The notes under the pieces: generated by a model
What the model was told of the DNA's origin: nothing
Seen by the model: the letters and a program-made list of their open reading frames with translations, nothing else
Database searches by the model: none
Position numbers and translations under genes: made by a program
Shown here: positions 24,819-45,427 of the stretch, in pieces
How positions within the stretch are numbered: position 1 is the stretch's first letter
Layout: the number at the start of each line of letters is the position of its first letter
Assembly: GCA_905233385.1 (NCBI GenBank)
Contig: CAJOEH010000006.1
Coordinates: 71,313 to 135,312, forward strand
Direction of reading: 5' to 3'
Source of the DNA: an uncultured Oscillospiraceae bacterium
Lineage (GTDB): Bacteria > Bacillota > Clostridia > Oscillospirales > Oscillospiraceae
DNA length: 64,000 nt

Positions 24819-24896
24819 TGAATTGGCGAAGCGAATCTGATATAATGAAGGCAGATGACAAAACGCACCTCTAAGCATACGAAGGAGGAGTTGCAG

Positions 24897-27146
24897 ATGA
24901 AAACACGAATTCTTGCGATTCTGCTGGCGGTCTTGCTGTTGTTGAGCGTACTGCCGACGGCGGCGCTGGCAGCGCCGGACGACGCAGGAGCGGACATTCT
25001 GGTCGAGGGCGATACGCCCCATCGCATCCATTGGACGATGTATCGGGACGGTACGCTCCGCCTTGAGCACACCGACAAGTATTCCTGTCTGGATCCGAAT
25101 GACCGTCCTTGGGTTGCCACATTCATAGTCGACGGACATGAAATCTATGGGGATTGGCATATCCGCACACTGGTGATCGAGGACGGAATAACGTATATTC
25201 CGGAAAATATGTTCCGGGAACTTCCGGCGCTGGAAAACGTCATCGTGAACGGTTCTCTGACGGAGATCGGGGAAAACGCATTCGGAGGATGCCAGGCGCT
25301 GCGCGATGTAACGATCCACGGAAACGTGGGCGGCTTTGACGGCGACGCCTGCTGGGGCGGCGTCCGCGCGAACGCCTTTTATCTCTGCAAGTGCATGCAG
25401 GGCTTCTACGTGGACGGACGCATTGCCAACGTCGGCGAAAGCGCGTTTTCGGGCGCAGACCTGTCCGGCATTTTCCCGCTGGTTTGCGGCGACATCGGAG
25501 CAGGGGCGTTTAAGAACAACCCGTCTTTCTACACCCTTCCTCCGGTCCGCGGCAGCGTCTGCGAAGACGCATTGAAAGGCACCACTATGAAAAACGAGCC
25601 GGTTTTCGTGGTATCCTCCCATCACGGGGATCTGAGCGGATTGGAAATTACGCGAAAGGCTCCGGTATGGAGCAGCTTTACGCAAAGTGTCTTGATGGTT
25701 GATGAAGATGCTTCTCCACGCATCTATTTTACCGGCACAGAGGCGGAGTTTCAGGCGAATTTCAGCAAGTACAAACGTTCCCACGAAGTGCAGCATCTGG
25801 GCGAACACGTCACCTGGGCGCTGGACGAGGAAACCGGCGTGCTGACGATCAGCGGCTACGGCTCCTGCATCGACCTGCTGTATATGGTTGAGCAGCCGTG
25901 GCTGAACATCCCGGGCGGGACCTGGGACGAAAACCGCGAGCGGATCACAAAGGTCCGCGTGCCCTACGGTCTGCGCCTCGGCGCGCATTACCTCGATCAG
26001 TTGGAAGATCGGGTAGAGTACTACTACGACCAAAGCGGAACACTCGGGACTGTGAACTGGGGGATTTCCGCCGGCAAGCTCTTCGTGAGCGGCACGGGCG
26101 CGATCCCGAGCCTCTATGGCAGGGAGAACGACGCCTGGATGCCGTATCGGGGAGAGGCCAGCGAGGACGTCAACGGAAACGGGATCAACGAGATCATCAT
26201 CGGGGACGGGATCACCGCGATCGGCTTCGGCGCGTTTATGAATTGCCCGAACCTGGAGCGGGTTACCTTTGCCGACAGCATCACGTCGGTGGAAGGCGCC
26301 GCGTTCTACGGCTGCCGGAATCTGAACAACGTTTCTCTGCCCTACCATCTCAAAACGATCGGGCGCAACGCATTCACCGACTGCACGGGCTTGCAGCGCA
26401 TTTTCATTCCGGAAACCGTGGAGACGATCGGCCCGCAATGCTTCGACCGCACCGGACTGACGGATATTTTCTACGGCGGCACGACGGAGCGTTGGAACGC
26501 CTTGAACGTAAGCGGCGTGAGCGGCGCGTTCGTGTACATGTCCAGCCCCGGATTCCCGCCCGGCGCGAGCGCAGCACCGACGCACGAGCCCAATTTCTTT
26601 GAAGATGTTTCCGAGGACGCGTACTACTTTGACGCGGTACGCTGGGCGGTGCGTGAGGAGATCACCGCCGGCACAGACGAAACGCACTTCTCGCCCGATG
26701 CGATCTGCACCCGCGCCCAGATGGCGACCTTCCTCTGGCGGACGGCGGGCGAGCCGGAGCCGCAGAGTACCGAAAATCCGTTCAAGGACGTTGCGGAAAC
26801 CGCCTACTATTACAAAGCCGTCCTCTGGGCGGCGGAGGTCGGCATCACGAAGGGCGTGGACGAAAGCCACTTCGCGCCCGAGGCGACCGTCACCCGCGCG
26901 CAGGCGACGACCCTCCTGTGCCGCGCCTTCGGCGGCAAGGCGGAGGGCGACAATCCCTTTGCCGACGTACCTGCAACTGCTTACTATGCGGAAGCAGTCC
27001 GCTGGGCGGCGAAGACCGGCGTGACGAACGGCACCGACGAGACGCATTTCAGCCCCGACGCGCCGTGCCTGCGCTGCCAAATCGTGACCTTCCTCTACCG
27101 CGCCGTGCAGAATCTCGAGCCCATCGAGGACGCGCCGGTTGAGTAA
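24897..27146 (+). CDS. SLH-domain BspA-like surface protein carried within the element
   Basis: RBS gaaggaggag; signal peptide MKTRILAILLAVLLLLSVLPTAALA; LRR_5 repeats; three SLH motifs (FFEDVSEDAYYFDAVRWAVREEITAGTDETHFSPDAICTRAQM). Confidence 0.88.
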   Translation: MKTRILAILLAVLLLLSVLPTAALAAPDDAGADILVEGDTPHRIHWTMYRDGTLRLEHTDKYSCLDPNDRPWVATFIVDGHEIYGDWHIRTLVIEDGITYIPENMFRELPALENVIVNGSLTEIGENAFGGCQALRDVTIHGNVGGFDGDACWGGVRANAFYLCKCMQGFYVDGRIANVGESAFSGADLSGIFPLVCGDIGAGAFKNNPSFYTLPPVRGSVCEDALKGTTMKNEPVFVVSSHHGDLSGLEITRKAPVWSSFTQSVLMVDEDASPRIYFTGTEAEFQANFSKYKRSHEVQHLGEHVTWALDEETGVLTISGYGSCIDLLYMVEQPWLNIPGGTWDENRERITKVRVPYGLRLGAHYLDQLEDRVEYYYDQSGTLGTVNWGISAGKLFVSGTGAIPSLYGRENDAWMPYRGEASEDVNGNGINEIIIGDGITAIGFGAFMNCPNLERVTFADSITSVEGAAFYGCRNLNNVSLPYHLKTIGRNAFTDCTGLQRIFIPETVETIGPQCFDRTGLTDIFYGGTTERWNALNVSGVSGAFVYMSSPGFPPGASAAPTHEPNFFEDVSEDAYYFDAVRWAVREEITAGTDETHFSPDAICTRAQMATFLWRTAGEPEPQSTENPFKDVAETAYYYKAVLWAAEVGITKGVDESHFAPEATVTRAQATTLLCRAFGGKAEGDNPFADVPATAYYAEAVRWAAKTGVTNGTDETHFSPDAPCLRCQIVTFLYRAVQNLEPIEDAPVE

Positions 27147-30076: not shown

Positions 30077-30283
30077 ATGAGAGAACATATCATTATTGAA
30101 AAAGCAGTAAAGTATTCCGTTCCAGATCAGAGCCCGACGCCATACGGGTGCACATATAAAACCCAAGAGGGATATTGGGTAGAAAACCTTTCAAATACTG
30201 CGATGATGAAAAGCGACAATCCCCAAAAACCAACAACAAAAAAGTGCGATATCGAAACGGGAGAAGATCAGAAAGGTGAATGA
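30077..30283 (+). CDS. Putative graspetide (ATP-grasp RiPP) precursor peptide
   Basis: 68 aa with RBS aaaggag; MREHIIIEKAVKYSVPDQSPTPYGCTYKTQEGYWVENLSNTAMMKSDNPQKPTTKKCDIETGEDQKGE; Thr/acidic-rich C-terminus; stop overlaps the ATP-grasp start. Confidence 0.75.
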   Translation: MREHIIIEKAVKYSVPDQSPTPYGCTYKTQEGYWVENLSNTAMMKSDNPQKPTTKKCDIETGEDQKGE

Positions 30284-31241
30284 TATTGAATACTTAGTTA
30301 TCTCTTCCTCCATCGATTATTCTACCGATCTTGTTTGCTTTGAGTTGCACGAGCGCCAAAAGTCATATTTGCGGCTAAATCGTGATAGTTTTGGAGATTA
30401 CGATATACTTTATTCGTTATCGGATCGGAGGATGGTAATAACAATTGGGGATGATGTTTATTCACTCAGGAATGATAATCTGAAAGGCATTTATTTTAGA
30501 GCGCCAGTATTCTTGCGATCTCACAAAAAATACAACATAAACGAACAATTGATTAGGAGTCAATGGAGTTCATTTATAAGAAACCTTGTCGTATTTGAAA
30601 ATGCAAAATGGATTAATCATCCGGTAAATACATATAGAGCTGAAAACAAAATGTATCAACTCCACTGCGCACAATCTGCAGGACTGTTAACCCCGAAAAC
30701 ATATGTTGGGAATGTATTACCAAAGAATATTATTGGCACGCAAGAATATATTGTTAAACCTTTGGATACTGCGTTGTTTTATAATGAATCACAAGAATAC
30801 TTTACATATGCCTCAGTTGTTGGAGGAAGCGAACTAATTGATTCAAATATTAAAGACGCACCTGTTATCTTTCAAGAATTCCTCGAAGATAAACTGGATA
30901 TTAGGGTTACAGTGATTGGTAATATGGTTTTTCCTGTTAGCATTACAAAGCAAGGGAAAAACATATATGGGGATTGGAGGGTGAACCCTAAGGACTCTCT
31001 GCAGTACACAAGTATTACACTTCCAAAAGGGATTACCAATAGAATAATTGGGCTTATGAACAAACTGGATCTTACGTTTGGTGGAGTTGATTTGGCACTA
31101 TCTAAGGGGAAATACTACTTTATTGAAGTTAATCCGACAGGAGAATGGGGCTGGATAAGTCCGTATTGCACAATGCCCTTAGAAATAGCTATCGTAAATG
31201 AATTAGTTGGGGAGGCATCTGATGAAAAGAGTCCTTTATGA
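30276..31241 (+). CDS. ATP-grasp ligase, putative graspetide synthetase (MvdC/MvdD-like)
   Basis: GIYFRAP, YIVKPLDTA, DIRVTVIGNMVFPV, DLALSKGKYYFIEVNPTGEWGWI (ATP-grasp catalytic C-terminus). Confidence 0.85.
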   Translation: MNDIEYLVISSSIDYSTDLVCFELHERQKSYLRLNRDSFGDYDILYSLSDRRMVITIGDDVYSLRNDNLKGIYFRAPVFLRSHKKYNINEQLIRSQWSSFIRNLVVFENAKWINHPVNTYRAENKMYQLHCAQSAGLLTPKTYVGNVLPKNIIGTQEYIVKPLDTALFYNESQEYFTYASVVGGSELIDSNIKDAPVIFQEFLEDKLDIRVTVIGNMVFPVSITKQGKNIYGDWRVNPKDSLQYTSITLPKGITNRIIGLMNKLDLTFGGVDLALSKGKYYFIEVNPTGEWGWISPYCTMPLEIAIVNELVGEASDEKSPL

Positions 31242-32085
31242 AATAATTCCTGCAGTATCTTTATATAGAGCAAATAGGGCACTAACAGAAAAGATAAATA
31301 GCGAAGAAAGCCAAGCCAACGTTGCCTATTTAGATAATATCAATGCGATACCAATTGACAGCTTTAGGCAGAAGTATGCTGAATCGTTTGAAATGAAAAA
31401 CCGATTCGAGGACAAAGCAAAAACAAATGTTTTTGGAATCACTATTGCCATTTCTGTGATTATGGGGGCAACGGGATTGACTGGCTCATTGATAAATAAA
31501 TATCATTCTCCCATTCTCAATTGGATAGTGTTTTTTATCCTTCTGGCGGCGATTGTCTATCTGCTTGCTTCGGGAATAGATGCAATTAAAGTACTCTTTA
31601 AGGAGAACACCATGTCAACAGTAGCTTTATCCGATTTGTCAACAGATAGTTTTGCTACAAAAGAAAAGTACGATGATTGCATAAACAGAAATATATATCG
31701 TAATACTATTAGAAACAACTATTTGCATTCGTCTTTTTTATGCATCAGAAATTCGCTAATATGCCTGATGGTCTTATTTATCCTTGTTTCTGTTCCAATC
31801 ACGGCAAAGAACTCCATAAGCACAACAGCCGTTGTCGCAACTCCATTCAGCGATTCGTCAGTTTCATATTCCTCAACTGTGATTATTCCAGATGGGCTAG
31901 TTGTTGCAAAAATCAATGAAAGCATTTTTCAAGACTTAGCAGAGCGAGACGTTATAGAAGAAAATACAGTTTACAGTTTTGTGAATATTGCGGAGAAATA
32001 CTTTGTACAATACAGATGCTATAAATCGGATATTATTGTAACGGCTTTTTCTTGTTTTGATAGGGTGCATAACGAGGGTCAATAA
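31222..32085 (+). CDS. Multi-TM membrane protein of the RiPP operon
   Basis: ggagg RBS; start overlaps the ATP-grasp gene; hydrophobic segments at VFGITIAISVIMGATGLTGSL, ILNWIVFFILLAAIVYLLASG, SLICLMVLFILVSVPITA. Confidence 0.75.
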   Translation: MKRVLYEIIPAVSLYRANRALTEKINSEESQANVAYLDNINAIPIDSFRQKYAESFEMKNRFEDKAKTNVFGITIAISVIMGATGLTGSLINKYHSPILNWIVFFILLAAIVYLLASGIDAIKVLFKENTMSTVALSDLSTDSFATKEKYDDCINRNIYRNTIRNNYLHSSFLCIRNSLICLMVLFILVSVPITAKNSISTTAVVATPFSDSSVSYSSTVIIPDGLVVAKINESIFQDLAERDVIEENTVYSFVNIAEKYFVQYRCYKSDIIVTAFSCFDRVHNEGQ

Positions 32086-32420
32086 TGTGGAAAACAGCGG
32101 CAGGAAGGAATCCTGCCGCTGTGAGTTTGTTAATGCGATGAAAAGCGTCAATGATGTGTTTCTTTCTAAATGATTTGCGTTTGCAATGCCGCATTACTTC
32201 ACTGGAGTTTGTTGCAGAGCAACCACAATTACTTATGAGTGTTATGCTACCCGAATTAAACTGTTATGGCAATCCCTTCGCGCTGCAAGAACATTTCACC
32301 ATATTATTTCGCACATTAAACAATCGGCATTTCAAATAATTCAAACTATTCATCAATTAGCAAACGGGAGAATTCGATGTGTGGTTTTTCTTTGAAAATG
32401 TCATTATCAGATGATGATCC

Positions 32421-32663
32421 CTATTTGATTTCCTGCTCCAGACCATCGAACAGAGGAGAATCGAAAAACTCGCGCAGACTGATCTCCCAGCCGTCGCAAA
32501 GCTTCTTGATCGAAACGATGCCTGGATTCTGACTTTTCTCGTTCAGCATACTGTAAATCGTGGACGGAGAAACGCCGGAGATATTTGCCAGCGCGTTGAT
32601 CGCCATATTCCGCTCCTTACAGATCTGGATGATTCTTTCGGCCACTGCCTCTTTGGTGTTCAT
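32421..32663 (-). CDS. Small XRE-family regulator
   Basis: MNTKEAVAERIIQICKERNMAINALANISGVSPSTIYSMLNEKSQNPGIVSIKKLCDGWEISLREFF. Confidence 0.88.
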   Translation of the reverse strand: MNTKEAVAERIIQICKERNMAINALANISGVSPSTIYSMLNEKSQNPGIVSIKKLCDGWEISLREFFDSPLFDGLEQEIK

Positions 32664-32677
32664 ATCAAACCTCCGCT

Positions 32678-32773
32678 TACGATATATCGCTAAAAGCATA
32701 TCCAAACTTGCGATAAATCGTGTGGGATATATCGCAATTTTTCGGACTACATGCTATAATTGCGATATATCCC
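32678..32773. promoter_or_regulatory. Divergent operator region with repeated GCGATATATCSC-type sites
   Basis: 16-bp perfect inverted repeat gggatatatcgcaatt (32724-32739) / aattgcgatatatccc (32758-32773), plus related sites near 32680 and 32708. Confidence 0.7.
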
Positions 32774-32792
32774 AAACGCGGGGGCGAATGAT

Positions 32793-33230
32793 ATGACCTG
32801 CACGTTCTTTGGACACCGCTATGTGCCAAAAGAAATAGAGCCGACCTTGCGGTCGACTCTGATTGATTTGATAGAAAACCTGGGAGTAGATCTGTTTTAC
32901 GTCGGCAATCACGGAGAGTTTGACGCGATGGTTCGCCGCATGATGCGTGAACTGTCTGCCAAATACCCAATTACATACCGCGTGGTCCTGGCGTATATGC
33001 CGGGGAAGAAAGATGTTTTCGATGCTGTCGATTATTCCGACACAGTTCTCCCGGAGGGCATCGAGACCGTACCGAAACGTTTTGCGATCAACTATCGGAA
33101 CAGATGGATGATCGAACAGTCGGATTTCGTCGTCACCTACGTCGTCCACGATGCCGGCTCCGGCGCAGCACAGTTTAAAAAACAGGCTGAACGGAAAGGG
33201 AAATCGGTGATTGAGCTGAGTCCGGACTAG
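32793..33230 (+). CDS. SLOG/DUF1273-like protein
   Basis: MTCTFFGHRYVPKEI...LFYVGNHGEFDAMV...VVLAYMPGKK...SDFVVTYVVHDAGSGAAQF. Confidence 0.75.
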   Translation: MTCTFFGHRYVPKEIEPTLRSTLIDLIENLGVDLFYVGNHGEFDAMVRRMMRELSAKYPITYRVVLAYMPGKKDVFDAVDYSDTVLPEGIETVPKRFAINYRNRWMIEQSDFVVTYVVHDAGSGAAQFKKQAERKGKSVIELSPD

Positions 33231-33263: not shown

Positions 33264-35066
33264 TTAACTATTTTTCGATAGTATTGAAGTGATGAATTGA
33301 GAAGGTTGCTGATACTTCAAATCACCCCAGGGCATCTTTTTATATTCAGCATATGAAAGGAAACAGAGTCTCTTGGCGCGTGTAACAGCCACATACATAT
33401 TGTTTTTTTCCTGCTCCATTTCTTTGCCGCCTGCATTTACAGCTCGATAATCAGGAAATGTCCCTTGCGACAGTCCAATTATATATACCACTTCAAATTG
33501 TAGCCCTTTAGACATATGCGCTGAAAGCAAAGATACGCCGTTGTTATTATCTGTCAATTGCGTTTTTCCTAAAGATACATGGTTTCTGAAGGATACAATT
33601 GTCCGTTGTTCCGAGGTGACCTGACTTGAATACTTTTGCCAATGCTTTTTCCACATACTACAGTCATTAAGCGCCATATACTTATCGTCATCGGAGATTT
33701 CAAGATTCTGAATCAAAGTTTCCAATTTATTCAACGCGCTTTTCAATTCAAACGGCTCAATGTTGATTTTCAAAACAATGTCATGAATCGTGGCAAAAAA
33801 GTCATCGGTTGCACCTGCAACAATGCTTTCCAGTTCTCTCGAATGAAGGATATCTTTAGGGTTGGCTATAAGTCTTAACTCCAAATCAAATGCTTTAAAA
33901 TAATCCGACTCGCTTTCAATACCCGATGCCGTTTTTTTGGAATAATAGGGTATTCCATGACGGCTCAGCTCTTCTTCAATTGCAGAAAATACATATTTAT
34001 TTCTTGCTATGATGGCAAAGTCGTCATATTTTAACGGTCCTTCGATGTCTGGATGACCGTTTTTCATTAAGTATTCAATTGAAGAACGAATAATCTCGGC
34101 TTCTTTGTTTTCATTAAAATAAGAATTTGCTGTTAGCTCGCCTTCATAAAAGCAATTCGGAATACCGGATGATTGCTCGAGAGTATTTGCAAATTGAACA
34201 ATCTTTTTTGCGGATCTGAAGTTTTCGTCTAGTCTAAAAATATGCGGATTAAAATCATTTTTAAATGCTACAGACATTAGTGTGCTGTCTGAGCCGTTGA
34301 AACCGTATATAGATTGGTTTTCGTCTCCGACCATCATTATGTTCTTGAATGATTCTCCGCATAGCGCCTTTATAACCATGTACTGAGCAAAATTCAAATC
34401 CTGAGCCTCATCAACGCAAATATATTTATATTGCGTTGTATAAAGCTTTACTATATTGGGGTTTTCAGACAGTATTCTATAGGCATAAAAAAGTATATCA
34501 TCAAAATCTATTCCACCTTGTGTTAACAATTGCTCGTTGTACAGTTTGTACATCAAAGCGTTGTTATCATTGATAGTGGGATTTGACGGAGAGATGAACT
34601 TTTTTTTGTAATCTGATATCATGGCCAGACAATCCGATAGGTATGATCTCTCTTGAGCATGTCTCTTTAAGACTTCACTCAATGTGTAGTTTTGCTCAAT
34701 TGCAGATAATAGTATTTTTTTCCTATCTTCAGCGCTTTCGAACAAAGACAAGTTTGAGTCAAGACCGATAAGAAATCCACGGCTTTGAACCATGTCTAAA
34801 CAAAATGCGTGAATTGTGCCTATTGTGGCATTATTAATTAAATCGTCTATATTTGAATCCTCTTTTATACGATCGCGCATTTCTTCTGCCGCCATATTGC
34901 TGAATGTTAAGGCAAGAACTTTTACTCGCGGCCCCGTTTGTAACAGCCTCTTAATTCTTTCTATTACAACGCGAGTTTTTCCGCTTCCAGGGCCGGCCAT
35001 AACCAATAATGCACCATCATTATAATCAACAATCTCTTGTTGAGCTTTTGAAAGTTTAATGCTCAT
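33264..35066 (-). CDS. gajB: UvrD-like helicase, GajB of a Gabija-type system
   Basis: VMAGPGSGKTRVVIERIK, VDEAQDLNFAQY, MMVGDENQSIYGFNGSD, SAHMSKGLQFEVVYIIGLSQG, YVAVTRAKRLCFLSYA; start abuts gajA stop. Confidence 0.87.
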   Translation of the reverse strand: MSIKLSKAQQEIVDYNDGALLVMAGPGSGKTRVVIERIKRLLQTGPRVKVLALTFSNMAAEEMRDRIKEDSNIDDLINNATIGTIHAFCLDMVQSRGFLIGLDSNLSLFESAEDRKKILLSAIEQNYTLSEVLKRHAQERSYLSDCLAMISDYKKKFISPSNPTINDNNALMYKLYNEQLLTQGGIDFDDILFYAYRILSENPNIVKLYTTQYKYICVDEAQDLNFAQYMVIKALCGESFKNIMMVGDENQSIYGFNGSDSTLMSVAFKNDFNPHIFRLDENFRSAKKIVQFANTLEQSSGIPNCFYEGELTANSYFNENKEAEIIRSSIEYLMKNGHPDIEGPLKYDDFAIIARNKYVFSAIEEELSRHGIPYYSKKTASGIESESDYFKAFDLELRLIANPKDILHSRELESIVAGATDDFFATIHDIVLKINIEPFELKSALNKLETLIQNLEISDDDKYMALNDCSMWKKHWQKYSSQVTSEQRTIVSFRNHVSLGKTQLTDNNNGVSLLSAHMSKGLQFEVVYIIGLSQGTFPDYRAVNAGGKEMEQEKNNMYVAVTRAKRLCFLSYAEYKKMPWGDLKYQQPSQFITSILSKNS

Positions 35067-36962
35067 TTATTCACCATCCCCAACGTTCAAACTCTCTTTA
35101 ACTTCGTTAAACAATTCATTCAGTTTTGACGGAATGCACAGCGTCTTATCTGATATGCTAACGATTTTCTCTGCTATACATTCAGCGTATTTTGCTTTGT
35201 CTTTTTTTAGACAATCAACAATAGCGCGTTTTCTCCCGTCTTCACCATCGTATTCATATAGAATTTGTTCTTTTTTTTGCAGTCCGCAAGTTGGACAAGG
35301 TTCCCCTGTGCTTTTTTGCCCTGCTACTTTATGATTATTAGTTGCAATGAAACGATCAAAGAACTGTACCGGATCTCGTGCAGCCCCTTCCGGATCAGAT
35401 TCCATCCGAAGAATATGTTCGTATTCATTGATAGCTTCAACTATATATTTACCGTAGCCGGATGATACGAGATATTGTTCATAGTATTCCCCATTATCAA
35501 GTACGATTACATTAGAAGACTGTTCTAACTCTTTCCCGGTCGCTTCAACTAATGCCTTATTAACTGTAGCGATGGTTTTTGTTTCACCATCGCTAAAGAT
35601 AAAAAATGGAATATCGAAGTCGACAAACAACTTGAGAAAAGAGCGGTAGTTTTGTCCACCTATTCCAAGAATATTGATCCCCAGCGAACTTGGATCACAT
35701 TTAAAAAACTTAGTAAAATAAATAGGTAGAGCAAGCTCCTCAGTAATGCCTTCAGCCAGAATAACTGCGCTGGAGAATAACAGGTCTCCTTTACTCTTTA
35801 TAAATTCTCTTTGAATCTTGGCGAGTTCCTCAGTTTGATATTTGGTATTATCAATTCTGTGTGCAAAAGTGGACCCATCTTTTTTGTAAATATGGATAAA
35901 GTCTTTGATATCTGCCTGCGCCAATATATTTGATGAATGTGTACTTACGATTTTTTGTCCAGTAAAATTCATTATCTGCTTATATAGTTTTTTTTGAGCG
36001 CAGGAATGTAGATGAGCTTCCGGTTCCTCCATGGTTAGTACCGAAAACATCTCTGCGTCAGGATCTTGTTTTTGAATACACGTTAGTAAATGCTTAACAT
36101 AAGCTCCCAAAGTCAAAAATGATACCCAACTGCGTGTTCCCATACCATGTTCTGATAAAGAAATCACTGGACCGCTTCCGTCTTGAAATTTTACATCAAT
36201 GCCTTTATGTAAATCGCTGATTTTTCTGCTTAGTGGTTCAATTTGAAGTGTGCTTGCAGCTGATCCGATAAGATTTCCTATCTCAGATAATTGAACTTCA
36301 GCTTCCCTAAGTGTCGGAGTGTTATCAACTATTTCTTTATTAATTTCATCCAACTGCTGTTCCAGTTTTTCAACAATTTCGGAAGGAATCTCACTGTTAG
36401 AAGTCGCTCTGCCAAAATACGATTTCTTATCTCTAATATCTTCCGTGATATCTCGATGAGCATCCATATAAAAGCAGGAAATATACTTCATCATATCTTG
36501 AGTGAAGCTTTGTTTCTTGCAATCGGCATTGTCAGCACTTTCGCCCCACTGTTTTATTACATATTTTGAACATCTGTAGTTATCAAACTCAATGTCATAT
36601 TGTATTATTGTCCTAATGCCTACAAAATCATTTGAATTGTCATCTGTAAAAATCCATTTTTCAGAAAAAACAGTTGTCCAAAAAGCCGAAAATGAATTTC
36701 TACCACTCTCGTCTTCGCCCGGGGAAATCATGACATCGATTATTGCAGCTTTATCTTTTTTCAGAGCTTCGCCGTTTTTTACAAATATGTCTTGTTCCGA
36801 CACAAAATAAGTAGTATTAAGTGCCACGTTAATAGCTCTTAGTATATTTGACTTTCCGGCATTGTTTTGTCCGAAAATCAAATTGTTGTCGCCTAAAACA
36901 ATCTCCAGTGACTCGATAGATCTAAAATTTTTGATACGCAATCGAGAAATCTTTAGTCCCAT
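35067..36962 (-). CDS. gajA: OLD-family ATPase/TOPRIM nuclease, GajA of a Gabija-type system
   Basis: LRIKNFRSIESLEIVLGDNNLIFGQNNAGKSNILRAIN, LTMEEPEAHLHSCAQ, STHSSNILAQAD, AVILAEGITEELALPIYF (TOPRIM). Confidence 0.88.
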   Translation of the reverse strand: MGLKISRLRIKNFRSIESLEIVLGDNNLIFGQNNAGKSNILRAINVALNTTYFVSEQDIFVKNGEALKKDKAAIIDVMISPGEDESGRNSFSAFWTTVFSEKWIFTDDNSNDFVGIRTIIQYDIEFDNYRCSKYVIKQWGESADNADCKKQSFTQDMMKYISCFYMDAHRDITEDIRDKKSYFGRATSNSEIPSEIVEKLEQQLDEINKEIVDNTPTLREAEVQLSEIGNLIGSAASTLQIEPLSRKISDLHKGIDVKFQDGSGPVISLSEHGMGTRSWVSFLTLGAYVKHLLTCIQKQDPDAEMFSVLTMEEPEAHLHSCAQKKLYKQIMNFTGQKIVSTHSSNILAQADIKDFIHIYKKDGSTFAHRIDNTKYQTEELAKIQREFIKSKGDLLFSSAVILAEGITEELALPIYFTKFFKCDPSSLGINILGIGGQNYRSFLKLFVDFDIPFFIFSDGETKTIATVNKALVEATGKELEQSSNVIVLDNGEYYEQYLVSSGYGKYIVEAINEYEHILRMESDPEGAARDPVQFFDRFIATNNHKVAGQKSTGEPCPTCGLQKKEQILYEYDGEDGRKRAIVDCLKKDKAKYAECIAEKIVSISDKTLCIPSKLNELFNEVKESLNVGDGE

Positions 36963-37076
36963 TGTTTTACAATCTCCTTTGTATAACCTGCTAAATAGGC
37001 CCCAAACACTCTGTTTTCTTCTGAGACCGTTATGACAAAACAACCGTCTACGTTCTTTTATACAAAGATTAACAAG

Positions 37077-37841
37077 CTAATAGTTCACCAATTTCGAATT
37101 ATGATACTCTATCATTTCTTTTGAAGGAAGAAACTTGCCGGGAAGAGCAATGCGCTTGCCCTCATACTTTTCAAAAAAGTCATAAAACACGTCGGAAGAA
37201 TACTTTTCTTTTGCCGCCTTTGAAATCAGGATATTGTAATCTGTATCAATGGTAAAAATGCCTTCATCAAAGGCTCTGTGGTGCAGGTAGTTGAGGCATA
37301 GTCCGTTTGTGGGGTTGTTCCGTTCGGTTGCCGGATCGCTCGCCGACCAGGATTTGATATGGCTTGCCTGAAGCAGTTTCGGGATGTCGATTCCGGTAAT
37401 ACAGCAGGTGTTATTATATGCTGAAAGAACGGTGCTCCGGAAAAACGCTTGTCCGCGACGAGAAGATCCTCTCGTTTCCACATTAACGCCTTCCGGGATA
37501 ATCAGCTCTGTTTGCTCGTCCGAGGTCAAGAGGATATCGCTTGAAGCAACGGCTCTCTCTGCTTCGTTATACAGACGTTCCATATCCTGATGAAATTCGT
37601 CCCATATCGCTTGATCCAGCTTGCTCCCATGCTGAAGCCCTTTGACGCCGCGGCTGGAGAGTTCGGGGTCGAAACGCCCGAAGTTGCACATCTTCATGGA
37701 AAGAGCAGAGGGGTTTCTTCCCATAGATGCAGCCAGTTTTTGTATTTGGGGGTTTGATTTGCTGATGCGCCCGAATGGGATTTTGCAGTACAATGCGAGC
37801 GCAAGAATTGTTTCTTCTCTTGTCCAATTTCGTCGTTCCAT
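37077..37841 (-). CDS. HNH endonuclease
   Basis: YNNTCCITGIDIPKLLQASHIKSWSASDPATERNNPTNGLCLNYLHHRAFDEGIFTID. Confidence 0.88.
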   Translation of the reverse strand: MERRNWTREETILALALYCKIPFGRISKSNPQIQKLAASMGRNPSALSMKMCNFGRFDPELSSRGVKGLQHGSKLDQAIWDEFHQDMERLYNEAERAVASSDILLTSDEQTELIIPEGVNVETRGSSRRGQAFFRSTVLSAYNNTCCITGIDIPKLLQASHIKSWSASDPATERNNPTNGLCLNYLHHRAFDEGIFTIDTDYNILISKAAKEKYSSDVFYDFFEKYEGKRIALPGKFLPSKEMIEYHNSKLVNY

Positions 37842-37858
37842 GTTTCACCCCATAAAAA

Positions 37859-38293
37859 CTAAAGATTCTGACCGGCCCTAATCTGTTCGGCAAGATGGTT
37901 CAGTGTTTCTTCTGCTGTATCCGCTTTCAACTGACATTCCCAAACCGTTAACACTCTCCAGCCGAGGCCGTTGAGCAGCTTTGCATTCTCTGTATCACGC
38001 TCGGCGTTTTTTTGTATTTTGGGAATCCAGTATTCTGTGTTTGACGAAGGCCAGACAAAACGCGGACAATCGTGTTTGTGCCAAAAGCAACCATTGACAA
38101 AAACAACTGTTTTATACTTTGGGAGCACAATATCCGGCTTGCCGGGCAGATCCTTGGCATTCTTTCTGTACCGAAACCCATTGGAGAATAAATACTTGCG
38201 CACCAGTTCTTCTGGCTTGGTATTTTTGCTTCGGATGCGTGACATATTCATGCTGCGAATCTCTTTTGAATGGTTATCTGCCATAGAAATCAC
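37859..38293 (-). CDS. vsr: Very-short-patch repair (Vsr) endonuclease
   Basis: MSRIRSKNTKPEELVRKYLFSNGFRYRKNAKDLPGKPDIVLPKYKTVVFVNGCFWHKHDC. Confidence 0.95.
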   Translation of the reverse strand: MISMADNHSKEIRSMNMSRIRSKNTKPEELVRKYLFSNGFRYRKNAKDLPGKPDIVLPKYKTVVFVNGCFWHKHDCPRFVWPSSNTEYWIPKIQKNAERDTENAKLLNGLGWRVLTVWECQLKADTAEETLNHLAEQIRAGQNL

Positions 38294-39228
38294 CCCAAGA
38301 GAAGCCCGATTCTCTCCGCAATTCTTCTAACAACAGGGACACAAACTGAATTGCCGATCTGTTTATATGCGTCGTCAAGTGAAATGGTATTCGGGAAAAA
38401 GAAACTTTGCGGGAAACCTTGAAAATCAAGGCATTCCCGCAGTGTCAGCTTCCGTATTCCGAAATCATCCCAAACTATGGGAACTCGATCAGGATACGTG
38501 CCCATATTTGCTGTCAGCGTCGGACACATGCGGTTTTTCGTTAAGCGCACTTCATTATCTGTTGGGCGATATATTGCTGACTTGTCAAACATTTTGCCTG
38601 CAAAATAGGAAAACAAATCATTTCCGTTATAATAATAGATTTCATTCTGCCGCACATCTCTGTGAATGATATCCGATGACTGTACGGTCAAAGCAATCGG
38701 CTCAGGATGGCTGTAACCTTTGCTTACGCTGTCGTGAACAGCGGTTATGTAAATACGCTTTCTTATATGAGGAAGATTACCATATTCATTGGCATACATC
38801 ACTTTGTAATAAACCACATAACCGAACTGCGCTAAAGAGTTGAATATAACGAGAAATGTTCTTCCGTTGTCGTGCTCAACAAGATTTGCAACATTTTCAA
38901 GGAATACCACTTTGGGACGCTTCGCATCGACAATTCTTGTGATCTCAAAGAACAGATTGCCTCGCTTGTCGCCAAACCCTTTCTGCTTTCCTGCTATGGA
39001 GAAAGGCTGACATGGGAATCCGGCTGCCAGAACATCAAAATCAGGGATATCGTCAGCCTTGACTTTACGAATATCCTTTTCGACAAGCTGCTTCTCGCCA
39101 AAGTTGCGGCGATATGTTTCGCAGGCGGCGGCATCTTTTTCGTTAGCCCAAACGATATCGAACCCGGCTTGTGAAAAGGCAAGATCAATTCCGCCGATAC
39201 CTGCAAAAAGACTGCATACACTCAGCAT
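38290..39228 (-). CDS. DNA (cytosine-5) methyltransferase
   Basis: SLFAGIGGIDLAFSQAGFDIVWANE, AAGFPCQPFSIAGKQKG, VFLENVANLV, QIGNSVCVPV. Confidence 0.95.
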   Translation of the reverse strand: MLSVCSLFAGIGGIDLAFSQAGFDIVWANEKDAAACETYRRNFGEKQLVEKDIRKVKADDIPDFDVLAAGFPCQPFSIAGKQKGFGDKRGNLFFEITRIVDAKRPKVVFLENVANLVEHDNGRTFLVIFNSLAQFGYVVYYKVMYANEYGNLPHIRKRIYITAVHDSVSKGYSHPEPIALTVQSSDIIHRDVRQNEIYYYNGNDLFSYFAGKMFDKSAIYRPTDNEVRLTKNRMCPTLTANMGTYPDRVPIVWDDFGIRKLTLRECLDFQGFPQSFFFPNTISLDDAYKQIGNSVCVPVVRRIAERIGLLLG

Positions 39229-39638
39229 CAAACCCAAACTCGCTCAATAACTATATCTGTTGGGCTTGTCCAAGTAACCCGAACAACAGTTCCGACTTCT
39301 GCTGCAATAGAATCATACCAGGTCTTTAATGCGCGCAGATTTTTGTTTACTGAAAACTGTTTGGCGAAAATATCTCCTTTTTTAGAACTGCCTTGTGCTT
39401 TAAATACTGCTGCAAATGATCCATCCTTTGACGTACAGTTAAAAATATTCTGCCCCAAAATATCCATTCCGCCGGTAGCATTTGAATTGAAAATTTGAAA
39501 ACTGGTTGCTGCGGTTCTGGGAATTGGCAAATATCTTTCTCCTTCAATGTGGGGGCGTGTGTCCGTATATCGATGCGTTCCCCAACCCAAATGTGAAGCT
39601 TTCAATTCTACGGTGTACGTATCACCTGTATTCGCCAT
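39228..39638 (-). CDS. Small uncharacterised protein within the R-M cluster
   Basis: 136-aa ORF MANTGDTYTVELKASHLGWGTHRYTDTRPHIEGERYLPIPRTAATSFQIFNSN...; abuts flanking R-M genes on the same strand. Confidence 0.7.
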   Translation of the reverse strand: MANTGDTYTVELKASHLGWGTHRYTDTRPHIEGERYLPIPRTAATSFQIFNSNATGGMDILGQNIFNCTSKDGSFAAVFKAQGSSKKGDIFAKQFSVNKNLRALKTWYDSIAAEVGTVVRVTWTSPTDIVIERVWV

Positions 39639-39651
39639 TATTTGTTCTCCT

Positions 39652-41211
39652 TTATATGTCTGATATTCTTACCTTGCGGTTTACGGAAAACAGATTCCTA
39701 ATCTGCGCATGGGAGTAGGGTACACTCTGCTGTTTTTCAACCATCTGGATCACATTAGAAACAGTTACAGCGCTCCCATTGACACCTGTTTCGTTGACAA
39801 TTCTCATCAGCTGACTATCAATATTTGAGCCAAATCCGCCTGCGATATATGAAAAGAAAGACAAGGGAATATGCGCAGGGCAGTAATTGTGAAAGCCCTC
39901 AATATAGTTATGAACCATTCGGTTGTGATGATCATTGCTGATGGTATATTTACTGTATGCTTTGTTATCGATTATACCCGCATATCCTTCAGAATCAGAT
40001 AGGAGCAGTACATCAGGAGTTAATCCTATGGGCCCGACGTGATGCGTTTCAAAGCCGAATACTTCGCGGAAAAGCGTCACAGTTGCCTTTTCAAACTCAG
40101 TAGCTTCATCTCTTCCTTTGAATGCCATGTCGAAATACTCTGTCATAAAGGAGCCGATTGCACCGTGAGGATATAATTTCAACAGAGCCTCTTCGACAAA
40201 GTGGCCATCGAGCCCGGTCTGCTGAACGATCTTGTCGATCAGTTCAGAAGTAATTCTGGTGATTGGTGTTTTAAGTGATTCAGCAACGAAGGCCTGTTTT
40301 ACTTTCTGCTCAGCAATCATTTTGGCGGTGATTGTCTGCGTTTGGGATAGATTGCGGGTGTCTTTTTGATGCTTTGGGTCCAAGCCGTATTTGCGCTGGA
40401 AATACTCATGCTGCTGGGGCCGGTCAATAAATGAAGGAACGACAGAAAGGATATGCCTAATCTCATCAGCCTTTTCTGGGATGACTCGCAGAAGACGATC
40501 TTCTTCGGAGCGCTTAGCAAGCTGTGTGTATTCGAGCCAGTTAATAAATGTATTAGCGATGTCCGTCAAATGACTGAAAGGATGATCTGGATTAACTTTG
40601 CCGGTTTTTGGCGCATATTTTTCGGTAAAGCCTTCTTCTAAAACTCGATCCCCGTAATGTCGGAAAGCAAGCAGCTTGTTGACAACTGCTTCATAACACT
40701 CTTTCGTTTCGTTTTCGGCGTCGGTAATGATGATCTTTGCCAGTTCTTCTTCCGAAAGATGCTCAACACGTTCGTCCATCAGCAATTTCAGCATGAATCT
40801 GAAAGGCCTGATTTTGAAACGTGACGAAACATCGACTCCCCTGCTCAGTGAAAAAGAGGACGGAAACTGATATTTTAATACCTGGCTCTTTAAAACAGCA
40901 ACTGGAGAGTCACCATTCATGATTGCTTCGCCGGCCAGAGTAAGCTTCAGCTGGCCTGTCGATTCTTGAGTGAAAACCAAACCGAGACTTGATATCCAAG
41001 CGAGATATGTTCTTGCGCCGCCGCCTGTTTGATCTCTTCTTTCACCAACACGCTTCAGGCCGGCTTCTTCAAGTGCTTCCTCAAGGGAGAGATGTGTATC
41101 ACGCTGTCCTCGCCATTCCTGGTCCAGTGACATTTCAGCAACAGCGGCAAGGACTTCTGGAACAGAGTTTAGTTTTCTCTTCGGACGTGTAGCCCACCAT
41201 GTATTTATCAT
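39652..41211 (-). CDS. Type II (AlwI/type IIS-like) restriction endonuclease, PD-(D/E)XK
   Basis: MINTWWATRPKRKLNSVPEVLAAVAEMS...; TPDVLLLSDSEGYAGIIDNKAY matches a PD-(D/E)XK-type core; lies between two methyltransferases. Confidence 0.72.
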   Translation of the reverse strand: MINTWWATRPKRKLNSVPEVLAAVAEMSLDQEWRGQRDTHLSLEEALEEAGLKRVGERRDQTGGGARTYLAWISSLGLVFTQESTGQLKLTLAGEAIMNGDSPVAVLKSQVLKYQFPSSFSLSRGVDVSSRFKIRPFRFMLKLLMDERVEHLSEEELAKIIITDAENETKECYEAVVNKLLAFRHYGDRVLEEGFTEKYAPKTGKVNPDHPFSHLTDIANTFINWLEYTQLAKRSEEDRLLRVIPEKADEIRHILSVVPSFIDRPQQHEYFQRKYGLDPKHQKDTRNLSQTQTITAKMIAEQKVKQAFVAESLKTPITRITSELIDKIVQQTGLDGHFVEEALLKLYPHGAIGSFMTEYFDMAFKGRDEATEFEKATVTLFREVFGFETHHVGPIGLTPDVLLLSDSEGYAGIIDNKAYSKYTISNDHHNRMVHNYIEGFHNYCPAHIPLSFFSYIAGGFGSNIDSQLMRIVNETGVNGSAVTVSNVIQMVEKQQSVPYSHAQIRNLFSVNRKVRISDI

Positions 41212-42281
41212 GAATCAGACTCCTCTTTCAGCGAAGGCTCAATGCTCTCATATTCAATGCCTGCAAAGGTTTTTAGAATTGCTTCAAATATGATTTCTGC
41301 GCCCTTGCACGGAACGGCCATACCGATTTGCTTTCGAACTGATTCTTTAGAACCCTCAAAAACAAAGTCATCTGGGAACGTCTGAAGTCTGGCGCGCTCT
41401 CTGTTTGTTAATGCTCTCGGCTCGCTCCAATGGTAGATGTGTGTCCCGCCGCCGCCGGAACCAGTAACGGTATACGCGGGTTTCGCTGGATCAAGCCTTT
41501 TATATATCTGGCTGATTTTTGCACCATGAACATTTAGTTTCAGCTCATCCGGAAGATCGGCGTTAAATGCGTTTTGTCCTGGTTTAATATATTTCAAACG
41601 TTCGACAACAACTGGTGACTGCTTTGTCTGCTCGTTATTAGGTGCATCGGGCAGAATAGGGGGGTTCTCTATTGCATTTCGGCACGAAACATCCGCATTA
41701 ACATATGGCGCATAACTTGGGATTTTGAATTCAAAAGGCAGATCGTTTCTTATTCCAACGATAATGACTCGGTGCCGAGCTTGAGGAACACCATATTTTT
41801 CAAAGCAGTATAGATTTGGATAGATTCTGTAGCCTGCGTCTTTTAAGTCCGCAAGGATCTTCTCAAACGCATTTCCTTCGTTAGCACTTCTGAGACCGCC
41901 GACATTTTCGGCTAAAAACCAATCTGGCTTGTGCGTTTTCAGCACTTGAACGCCATAGGTATACAGCGGGCCATATGTACCGTCAAAGCCCTTTTGTTCT
42001 CCAACAACGGAGAAATCGTTGCAGGGGAAACCAAAAGCCAACGCATCTATTGGGGGCAATGCGGTTAAGTCAAGCTTTCTTACGTCGCCGCAGATAACGC
42101 TTTCGGGATCATTTGGGCAAATGTTTTTGATATATGTCCTGCAGGTATCTGGGTCATAATCATTGGCCCACTGATGAATAATTCTATAGTTATCGGCGGG
42201 TCCAACGACTGCATTCATCGCACCCCAAGCCAAGCCGCCGGGACCGCAGAATAACTCGCCTAATCTAAATCTAACTAACAT
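41208..42281 (-). CDS. DNA (cytosine-5) methyltransferase
   Basis: GELFCGPGGLAWGAMNA, ALAFGFPCNDFSVVGEQKGFDGTYGPL, FLAENVGGLRS, KQIGMAVPCKGAE. Confidence 0.95.
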   Translation of the reverse strand: MLVRFRLGELFCGPGGLAWGAMNAVVGPADNYRIIHQWANDYDPDTCRTYIKNICPNDPESVICGDVRKLDLTALPPIDALAFGFPCNDFSVVGEQKGFDGTYGPLYTYGVQVLKTHKPDWFLAENVGGLRSANEGNAFEKILADLKDAGYRIYPNLYCFEKYGVPQARHRVIIVGIRNDLPFEFKIPSYAPYVNADVSCRNAIENPPILPDAPNNEQTKQSPVVVERLKYIKPGQNAFNADLPDELKLNVHGAKISQIYKRLDPAKPAYTVTGSGGGGTHIYHWSEPRALTNRERARLQTFPDDFVFEGSKESVRKQIGMAVPCKGAEIIFEAILKTFAGIEYESIEPSLKEESDS

Positions 42282-42323
42282 ACTGACACCTCATTCTTCC
42301 GTTTGTCTCTTTATCTTGTTGAT

Positions 42324-42542
42324 TTACATTCCCATGAACAGCTCGCTGAGGGAAACGCCGAGACCGTCGGCGATCTTTTTGATGTTGATAATGGAGATGT
42401 TGCGCCTGCCGGCTTCCACGGAAGCGAAGTAGGTACGATCCATCTCGATCTTCAAGGCGAACTTTTCCTGAGAAAGCCCGGTGCGCTCTTTTCTGAGCTC
42501 TTGTATCCGCTTTCCCAAATCTTTTGTAATCATGGCAAACAT
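42324..42542 (-). CDS. XRE controller (C) protein of the R-M system
   Basis: LGKRIQELRKERTGLSQEKFALKIEMDRTYFASVEAGRRNISIINIKKIADGLGVSLSELF; upstream AGATATCTGTAGATAT-type C-box. Confidence 0.9.
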   Translation of the reverse strand: MFAMITKDLGKRIQELRKERTGLSQEKFALKIEMDRTYFASVEAGRRNISIINIKKIADGLGVSLSELFMGM

Positions 42543-42924
42543 CCTCCGACAAATATCTACAGATATCTAATTAGAATTGTAGCCGTCCACGGGTTATGAT
42601 ACAACGGATTATAAGCAACATGGCGCGTTTATTGATCCACTTTTACACGGAGATCATTTCAACATGGAGGATACTAATTGGCAGAGCAATAATAGACAAC
42701 ACGAAAGTGCTGTGGTATAATAATATTCTATTAATTAGGTTGCTGAATACGGCATAAAACCACAATTCGAGAAATTTGCAATTCTGCATCAAAACGGCAG
42801 AGATATCTTAGAGTAAATAGCAAAACAATACTTGGAAATAAAAAGCGCTCAATTTGCGATATTGCTGCAAAGCGTTGATAGGCGTGCATGATTAATAGGA
42901 CATTTTAGCGTAAGGAGCAATAGA

Positions 42925-43821
42925 ATGAACAGCTTAGTACTTGATCTTCAAAAAGAAGTCATAAAACCGGACTGCGATATTGTGAATGTGTTACGTAAGG
43001 CGCACTTGATAGCGGTTAAACTTGACCTCAAAGAATTTGACAAGTGGATTACCTGTGAACTCTATGGGTATGGGAAAAATGACACCGTTCCAAACTACCG
43101 TGAAGTTATGGGGGAATTAGAGGCGCTCAATCCATACCGTGGTTGGGATGCAGTATTAATTAGGTCTACGCAAACCCAAAATAGTATTTGCAGACGCAAG
43201 ATTCGTATCTCAATTTCCGAAATCAAGGAACTTTATAAAAAGAGCAATAATACAGTAGTTCTTTCGCTGTCAGGAGATCAGCAGGCAGAATTAAACCGTA
43301 TATCTTCTTTCCCATTAGAAACACAGTACAGGATTGAATTTTCAATTACTGCAGTTGGAAATATAATGGAAATGGTTAAGAACACCATTTTGGAATGGAC
43401 GATAAAGCTCGAAGCGGAAGGAATTCTTGGCGAAGAAATGCAGTTTGACGCAACAGAAATAGAAACTGCAAAGAAAATGCCACAAACAATTATCAACTAT
43501 TATGGCAATACTAACGTGATCAATGCGCCAATGGAGCGTTCTGCTGTTATTGCAGGTAATGATAATTCTGTTGAGTTAACAAATGATAGAGCAAAAGACA
43601 TAATTGCAGAGGTTGAAACTTCGTTGAAAGAGGAAGATATTCCCTCCGAGGATCGAGAGAACGCGATGGAAATGTTAGAAGAAATCAAAGTAAAGGTTTC
43701 TGAAAAGAAAAAAGCTCGCGTGATTAAGGCGGCACTTGTGGGGCTAAAAGATTACTTAATCGGCCTTGGTGCCAGCGCAACCGTCGCTCTGATACAAGCA
43801 AAAATGCAGGGCCTTTTATAG
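42925..43821 (+). CDS. AbiTii-domain abortive infection-type protein
   Basis: LVLDLQKEVIKPDCDIVNVLRKAHLIAVKLDLKEFDKWITCELYGY matches the AbiTii N-terminal pattern. Confidence 0.75.
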   Translation: MNSLVLDLQKEVIKPDCDIVNVLRKAHLIAVKLDLKEFDKWITCELYGYGKNDTVPNYREVMGELEALNPYRGWDAVLIRSTQTQNSICRRKIRISISEIKELYKKSNNTVVLSLSGDQQAELNRISSFPLETQYRIEFSITAVGNIMEMVKNTILEWTIKLEAEGILGEEMQFDATEIETAKKMPQTIINYYGNTNVINAPMERSAVIAGNDNSVELTNDRAKDIIAEVETSLKEEDIPSEDRENAMEMLEEIKVKVSEKKKARVIKAALVGLKDYLIGLGASATVALIQAKMQGLL

Positions 43822-44046
43822 GTGCTACTTTCGCACTTTTCGAGAAACGATTCTGAAACAGCCGACTACATATAGCCGCTTAACTGACGACAATGACTTA
43901 TCAAAGAGCCATTAAGACGTCGCTTTATAGCAATAGATAGTTGCCATAAAGCCGATTTATTATGCTAAACGGCTGTAATTACAAGTATCTCTAATTTGGC
44001 AGATGTTACGCTTGCTGAAACTGCAGTATTTATGCAATTGAAAACC

Positions 44047-44084
44047 AAAAACGCGTTATCGGCATTTGCCGATAACGCGTTTTT
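44047..44084. terminator. Hairpin terminator
   Basis: aaaaacgcgttatcggcatttgccgataacgcgttttt. Confidence 0.8.
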
Positions 44085-44156
44085 GATAAGTGTTGATTTC
44101 TTATATCATTAAGTAACATAATAAGAAGCGGGTGCAAAAAGATATTTAATACTCCG

Positions 44157-45302
44157 CTACGTATCCTTCCTGAGAATATCCAGATACTCATCATAGGTAA
44201 AAACGAGCGATTTTCCGGATTTGGCGGAGTATTGCAGGATGCCCTTATCGCGGAGGATCGTAATATAGTTCGCAGTGCCATTTCTGGAAAACCCGAGCGC
44301 AGCGGCTGTTTTGACTGTTTCGATGATCGGGTTTTGCTCAATATAGGTGAACAGATCCAGGATGCGCTGGCGTGAGCGGGTCGGAACATCTGCCAGCTTT
44401 GCTTCGTTCTTCTGGTGCAGCGCATTCAGACGGTCGATGGTTTCCGTTGCATCTTCGGCAGTTTCAGCGATCCCGCGCAGGAAGAATTTTACCCATTGCT
44501 CGTAATTGCCGCTCTTGCGAATCTCGCTCATTCTGTCATAATACTCGATCCGGTTCAACTTAAGATAGCAAGATAGGTACAGCACGGGAGAGGATAAAAC
44601 GTTCGCGCCCATCAGGAACAAGGTGATCAACAGCCTGCCAACACGCCCGTTGCCGTCAAGGAAGGGATGGATCGTTTCAAACTGGTAATGAAGCAGCGCT
44701 GCTTTGATCAGCGGGTCCATCGCGTCGTCGTCATTCATAAATCTTTCAAAGTCCGCCATACACTCGGCCATATCCTGCGGATTGGGCGGAATATAGCGGG
44801 CGTTTTTCAGCGTGCTACCGGGAGGACCGATCCAGTTCTGCGATACACGGAATTCTCCCGGCGTTTTATCACTGCCGCGTACACTGTGCATCAGCACTTC
44901 GTGTGTTTCCCGAATCAGACGGTTGCACAGAGGCAGTTCCTCCAGCCGTCGGATAGCATAATTGATCGCACGGACATAATTCACGACGTCGGAAACATCA
45001 GCGTTTGCGTTCTCGTCGATCTCCGGGTCCAGTACGTCTTCCAGTGTGCATTGCGTTCCTTCGATCTGCGAGGAGACCAGCGCTTCCTTCCGGACGTACA
45101 TGGAGATAAACAGATCCTTATTCGGAATGCGGTCAGATAAGCCGTTGAGCAGCGCCAGTTTCCTGTGCGCATCGACCAGGAGCTGTTGCATCTCGGTATC
45201 GATCTCAATATTCGGCTCCGGTGGCAGCGGCTGTGGATAGAATGAAGTATACTGCAGTTCGCCGCTGAGGTTCTGTACCGTTGTTCCCGCACGATTCTTC
45301 AT
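44157..45302 (-). CDS. Fic-family protein with winged-helix C-terminus
   Basis: HYQFETIHPFLDGNGRVGRLLI (Fic motif); N-terminal SSQIEGTQCTLEDVL inhibitory-type motif. Confidence 0.95.
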   Translation of the reverse strand: MKNRAGTTVQNLSGELQYTSFYPQPLPPEPNIEIDTEMQQLLVDAHRKLALLNGLSDRIPNKDLFISMYVRKEALVSSQIEGTQCTLEDVLDPEIDENANADVSDVVNYVRAINYAIRRLEELPLCNRLIRETHEVLMHSVRGSDKTPGEFRVSQNWIGPPGSTLKNARYIPPNPQDMAECMADFERFMNDDDAMDPLIKAALLHYQFETIHPFLDGNGRVGRLLITLFLMGANVLSSPVLYLSCYLKLNRIEYYDRMSEIRKSGNYEQWVKFFLRGIAETAEDATETIDRLNALHQKNEAKLADVPTRSRQRILDLFTYIEQNPIIETVKTAAALGFSRNGTANYITILRDKGILQYSAKSGKSLVFTYDEYLDILRKDT

Positions 45303-45318
45303 TGCGAAACCTCCAATT

Positions 45319-45427
45319 TGCGTTTTCTGCCGGTAGTATAGCATAGAAAACGCACAAAATCAATAGTTTGTGAGTTTTCCAAAGATAATTGTTTTAGAAA
45401 ACGCAAAAAATCGACAGTTTGTGAGTT
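45319..45427. promoter_or_regulatory. Repeated operator-like sequence upstream of fic
   Basis: tagaaaacgcacaaaatcaatagtttgtgagtt (45344-45376) and tagaaaacgcaaaaaatcgacagtttgtgagtt (45395-45427), 51 bp apart; inverted tgcgttttct at 45319-45328. Confidence 0.65.

Follow-up and report, generated by a model that had tools for sequence, protein, structure and literature searches.

The stretch of DNA analysed here (64,000 nucleotides, hereafter the window) carries a conserved, mobile, patchily distributed and obligate three-gene unit of graspetide type, made of a short precursor peptide, an ATP-grasp ligase and a three-transmembrane (TM) protein. Graspetides are usually studied as secreted natural products; here a core that is nearly constant over about twenty phyla, an obligate membrane partner and a setting among defence genes and in prophages point to a conserved task inside the cell, and suggest a so far unrecognised form of peptide-based anti-phage defence.

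Gene layout and the ligase

The ORF check of the window recovered three overlapping genes at 30077-32085, which form one unit. They lie exactly where the preliminary description of this DNA had placed them, and the precursor tail and the ligase end FIEVNPTGEWGWI that it quoted were both correct. The features of the unit are the following:

30077..30283, + strand: precursor peptide of 68 aa with ATG start and an AGGAG ribosome site just upstream, supported by the family alignment; a leader with HxxIxxA and GYW motifs is followed by the C-terminal core TTKKCDIETGEDQKGE
30236..30280, + strand: invariant tail (core) TKKCDIETGEDQKGE, the presumed crosslinking site (T/S at -6 and K at +6, each in 118/118)
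30276..31241, + strand: ATP-grasp graspetide synthetase of 321 aa with GTG start, overlapping the precursor stop
31222..32085, + strand: three-TM partner protein of 287 aa counted from ATG, with a GGGAGG site upstream and overlapping the ligase end; putative effector or target of the peptide, predicted N-in/C-out
32094..32122, + strand: terminator-like hairpin of 12 pairs closing the unit (a consensus match only, the regional count not being above shuffles)

The best NCBIfam models for the window ligase are TIGR04187 (167 bits, E 4e-49), MvdC and MvdD, and all its matches to NCBIfam graspetide ligases score under the curated subfamily cut-offs, so that it represents a branch of its own. A profile built from 49 relatives of the ligase matches the structures of MdnB, MdnC, CdnC, PruB and PsnB with E down to 4e-62, and the first 32 structural matches of the predicted structure (pLDDT 93) are solved graspetide macrocyclases, followed by RimK. 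Catalytic-type residues K161, D272, E284 and N286 are invariant in the family ligases, together with a D208xR210 pair; in PsnB the DxR pair binds the core. The ETGED-type ligases, named here after the precursor tail that accompanies them, fall in one clade (SH-aLRT 94 in a quick tree). By sequence, profile and predicted fold the window enzyme is a graspetide synthetase, and the HMM search that had been proposed as a check of this assignment agrees with it. Distant RimK-type ligases of the same order (L005-L008), which have neither the TM partner nor a tail precursor, were set aside.

The precursor tail and the cohesion of the cassette

The C-terminal end of the 68-aa window peptide conforms to [T/S]KKxDxETGEDxKG[E/Q]. 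Scans of genome contigs and viral contigs with the single sequence of the window ligase gave no matches, and it was a DNA pattern for the tail that succeeded: searched over the genome collection as KKxDxETGED, for which only a few chance matches are expected, it was found in at least 119 stretches, at least 105 of which belong to short ORFs ending in the tail, the remainder being mostly chance occurrences inside long proteins. Loci with a tail precursor span about 20 phyla and include 3 archaeal loci. Conservation was read in 118 distinct precursors at the positions that the pattern leaves free: position -6 is T or S in 118/118, position +6 is K in 118/118, G occupies position +7 in 113, and in 116 exactly four residues follow ETGED before the chain stops. 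The positions that the pattern itself fixes (K-5, K-4, D-2, E0, T+1, E+3 and D+4) also hold in the clade members found by way of the ligase and not of the tail (L004, L009-L013, L140, L141 and L143), 9/9 of which carry the tail. The same trio and tail are present in a relative from the same order, and rhizobial and Azospirillum plasmids likewise bear the trio with an ETGED tail.

The tail carries S/T/K donors and D/E acceptors, as graspetide precursors need, and the graspetide reading first given to the precursor is in line both with these residues and with the restriction of position -6 to T or S in all the unique precursors. The Phhx(1,2)h (PFFARFL-like) leader motif is absent from the family, whose leader consensus is HxLLxxA...YDxxxGxW; this motif is reported in Makarova 2022 (PMC8939145) for only about half of graspetide precursors. 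No conserved cleavage site of GG type precedes the tail in the family alignment. Of 75 members compared with the NCBIfam precursor models (e.g., TIGR04186) one gave a match, at E = 0.056, and the window precursor gave none; NCBIfam holds no model for a precursor with the ETGED tail. Tandem precursor pairs, about 215-250 bp apart and served by a single ligase, were observed at L024, L052, L063, L072, L075, L092, L127 and L134, and at several tandem loci of Bacteroidota type the two precursor copies belong to two distinct subtypes. The precursors of L082 and L123, one of which comes from a Bathyarchaeota bin, have a four-residue extension (MWR/MWS) past the tail.

Among the matches listed, a family ligase follows the precursor in 116/119 cases with room for it, so paired that the lone ligase homologues named beforehand as contrary to the graspetide reading did not occur, and a homologous three-TM protein follows that ligase in 89/92. 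Mining genomes for the three-gene synteny, another check that had been proposed, recovered the precursor-ligase-TM order in about 90 loci, and the trio is therefore not a chance arrangement. Of 399 Bacillota genomes, 4 have the clade ligase; these 4, and no others, also have the TM protein, the frequency of the cassette being about 1% of Bacillota genomes, and among the 60 near-relative genomes searched only the window genome has it. Mean identities are 40% for the ligase, 26% for the leader and 20% for the TM protein, and the tail does not diverge. The divergences of ligase, TM protein and leader are correlated (r = 0.76-0.81; the best of 999 permutations reaches about 0.12).

The membrane partner and its genomic setting

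The confident AlphaFold2 model of the TM protein (pLDDT 86) shows long helices at residues 45-93, 97-126 and 143-190, with a small beta part at the C-terminus. Lys and Arg account for 26% of the 15 residues that precede TM1 vs. 4% of the TM1-TM2 loop, hence an N-in/C-out topology is likely. Conservation sits in the cytosolic halves and in the TMs (K65 in 98%; also N166, N157 and an R at 58), and the exocytoplasmic C-terminal tail is variable or absent. The TM proteins constitute one family: three split-half tests recovered 39-40 of 40 held-out members at E < 1e-3. No credible match was obtained against Pfam, PDB sequences, PDB folds or viral folds, and for this reason the labels of pore, SLATT and PycTM, which we considered, are withheld. 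The protein has three TM helices and matches no Pfam family and, as the preliminary description had recognized, no standard exporter. The suggestion made there of an immunity or export role is nevertheless not favoured, given that no exporter or peptidase is conserved, that the exocytoplasmic part is variable and that the setting is one of defence islands and prophages; a sensing role is possible. On the whole, the graspetide reading made at that stage is well supported and the immunity or export one is not favoured; what had been missed is that the tail is near-invariant, that the family is broad and that it sits among defence genes.

Loss of the TM gene was seen in 7 of 69 loci vs. 5 for the ligase and is not clearly commoner; these counts are uninformative, and the idea that the TM gene decays preferentially, which would have hinted at toxicity, was discarded. 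Breaks or splits in the TM gene of L056, L102 and L141 (also of L025, L012 and L039) fall at nearly one place, within the linker that joins TM2 to the third long helix, and could reflect decay or gene fission. Damaged cassettes include L134 and L125, where the truncated ligase is followed by a transposase-like ORF and by a mobile-element replication gene, respectively, and L039 (Morganella), which has frameshifts.

The window cassette stands at the left end of a region of low GC (about 30-50 kb; 0.37-0.47 G+C vs. 0.53-0.64 around it), and to its right are found Gabija, an HNH nuclease, a restriction-modification set, AbiTii and Fic. These genes, with Gabija present as a pair, crowd into a dense defence island at 33264-45344, whose restriction-modification content consists of two C5 methyltransferases and a FokI/AlwI-like endonuclease. 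The interval between the cassette and Gabija (32421-33230) holds a small XRE-type HTH gene on the - strand and a 156-aa ORF starting TCTFFGHR, for which no Pfam match was found and which we presume to be SLOG/DUF1273-like. A surface protein of 763 aa, encoded at 24855-27146 of the window, combines three SLH domains with leucine-rich repeats of BspA type.

Across the family, 150 neighbours from 78 cassettes match 141 PADLOC models at E < 1e-15, including AbiEi/AbiEii, HmaA, LmuA, GajB, DrmD, a CBASS cyclase, BrxH, IetA, ThsB (ThsB_TIR was found twice) and endonucleases, vs. 2 models for 140 control ORFs, where the controls are Bacillota-only and from other genomes and the counts are of models and not of proteins. 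The cassette ligase and TM protein themselves match 0 families of PADLOC-DB 2.0.0, and the Pfam families that match at least 2 of the 150 neighbours comprise no ABC-transporter or C39-peptidase. Plasmid copies adjoin integrase, SIR2, AbiE or ABC-three-component genes. Two viral contigs (prophages) carry the cassette as a moron, in one just before the endolysin, terminase and portal genes and in the other between the gene of a minor head protein and that of a head maturation protease. E. coli hotspots gave no match to an Aeromonas copy. The cassette is thus found preferentially near known defence genes and on mobile elements, by comparison with a rough control, and qualifies as a candidate defence system.

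Proposed action, alternatives and comparison with known systems

According to the mechanism that we propose, the ATP-grasp enzyme would bind the leader of the precursor and join side chains within the tail [T/S]KKxDxETGEDxKG by ester and/or amide links; that the ligase crosslinks the tail is very probable. The modified peptide would then be neither cut out nor exported and would stay in the cytosol, as we infer from the lack of a conserved cleavage site, peptidase or exporter. The fixed tail would meet a partner that is itself fixed; the simplest candidate is the three-TM protein encoded with it, on whose cytosolic face the peptide would act to hold the protein in check or trigger it. An action of the modified peptide inside the cell on this protein appears likely, since conservation of the latter is cytosolic or within the membrane and its exocytoplasmic C-terminus is variable or absent. 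The unit would act in phage defence or superinfection exclusion, a role suggested by its setting among anti-phage genes and in prophages; we lean slightly toward this anti-phage role, bearing in mind that islands and prophages also accumulate other cargo, toxin-antitoxin modules included. The TM protein would be a membrane-acting effector, released when infection disturbs the peptide, the ligase or the membrane, but such gating by the peptide is put forward tentatively, the modelled fold being unlike any known pore or effector. The combined reading, taken in outline from leader binding to defence, falls just short of being probable to us, with the use of a distant homologue of the TM protein by loci with repeated-core precursors weighing against it. 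With more reserve we advance that a ribosomal peptide, crosslinked but never exported, could serve an anti-phage system as its signal or safety catch, in bacteria as well as archaea; such a system, with a membrane effector of its own, would be a RiPP-based form of intracellular immunity that none of the sources consulted describes.

The foremost alternative, which we regard as unlikely, is an ordinary secreted graspetide, e.g., a protease inhibitor or an antimicrobial, in which case the TM protein would be dedicated to its export, as a small transporter, or to self-immunity. The ligase family and the graspetide type of the precursor would suit such a product, and immunity or export proteins often stand last in graspetide-type operons. 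Transport is also what Makarova 2022 (PMC8939145) suggests for membrane proteins at thuringinin loci without known transporters. Nonetheless, no cleavage site is conserved before the tail, neither peptidase nor ATPase occurs in the unit or commonly nearby, the TM protein is conserved on its cytosolic side, and a core nearly constant over about 20 phyla, while leader and TM protein vary, is unlike an arms-race weapon.

An addiction or toxin-antitoxin module, in which the TM protein would be the toxin and the modified peptide its antidote with no dedicated anti-phage task, seems improbable. The cassette is indeed mobile and patchy, occurs on plasmids and in prophages, pairs a membrane protein with a small partner peptide and has Abi and Fic genes nearby; however, a three-gene unit with an ATP-dependent ligase would be an expensive means of addiction, toxin-antitoxin pairs diverge together whereas this tail has stayed identical across phyla, and breakage does not clearly affect the TM gene more often than the ligase. 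Quite improbable, too, is an intracellular regulator unrelated to phages, whose crosslinked peptide would inhibit or tune a membrane-bound process or a protease with the TM protein as its anchor: some graspetides do inhibit proteases, conservation of the TM protein is cytosolic and the fixed tail suggests a conserved target, but occurrence in about 1% of genomes and the defence-island and prophage settings are ill-suited to a housekeeping role. Very improbable is the case of no crosslink at all, where the ATP-grasp enzyme would add amino acids to the tail or the TM protein (RimK-like glutamylation), as RimK being the next structural neighbour of the ligase and a phage family match annotated as S6 glutaminyl transferase might suggest, because macrocyclases fill the first 32 structural matches before RimK appears and the T/S-only position -6, the lysines and the acidic residues are what crosslinking requires.

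Should the cassette, as we favour, protect against phages, immune chemistry would extend from nucleotide signalling to the crosslinking of peptides, and a function would be assigned to many genomic sets annotated as "RimK-like protein plus hypothetical proteins". The chemistry is of a known kind; what is new, to judge by the sources consulted, is that the tail is near-invariant across phyla, that the TM partner is obligate and that the cassette occurs among defence genes and in prophages. The literature searched contained neither an earlier description of the tail nor a defence role for graspetides; the precursor motif may already be among the graspetide groups that Lee 2020 and Ramesh 2021 reportedly define.

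The named graspetides (microviridin MdnA/B/C, chryseoviridin CdnA/B/C, plesiocin PsnA/B and prunipeptin PruB) share with the cassette the ATP-grasp family, the fold and the adjacent precursor, and likewise have hydroxyl or Lys donors and Asp/Glu acceptors at the C-terminus. Unlike them, the cassette has one core, near-invariant over about 20 phyla, an obligate three-TM partner and a defence and prophage setting, and is devoid of a GG-type cleavage site, exporter and peptidase. Repeated-core cassettes (TKTxVxxExDDD; L144-L146, L148-L151, the Leptospira phage L015 and the faecal phage contig L014) have a related ligase, and their membrane protein is remotely homologous to the TM partner of the cassette (hhalign probability 98%); they differ in their several repeated cores, in another leader and in ligases that fall outside the ETGED clade. 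Since distant homologues of the TM partner accompany this graspetide type, the partner belongs to a graspetide-linked family.

Thuringinin-type loci likewise combine in one locus a graspetide precursor, a ligase and a membrane protein of uncharacterised role, but their precursor is unlike that of the window family. Makarova 2022 (PMC8939145) mentions the uncharacterised membrane-protein clusters 18 and 40 at graspetide loci, suggests transport for one such cluster and does not propose defence; compared by hhalign with the window TM family, membrane proteins of this kind give probabilities of 26% and 6%. Graspetide group 10 often co-occurs with a DNA helicase, according to Carter 2026 (PMC13097080), and helicases are neighbours here too (GajB, DrmD and BrxH); group 10 may be the ETGED-tail family. 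Finally, CBASS and systems with Pycsar-type logic differ in that here the product would be a ribosomal peptide made by an ATP-grasp enzyme and the TM protein matches no known effector; the resemblance is solely in the way of working, with a small intracellular product and a dedicated membrane protein in defence islands.
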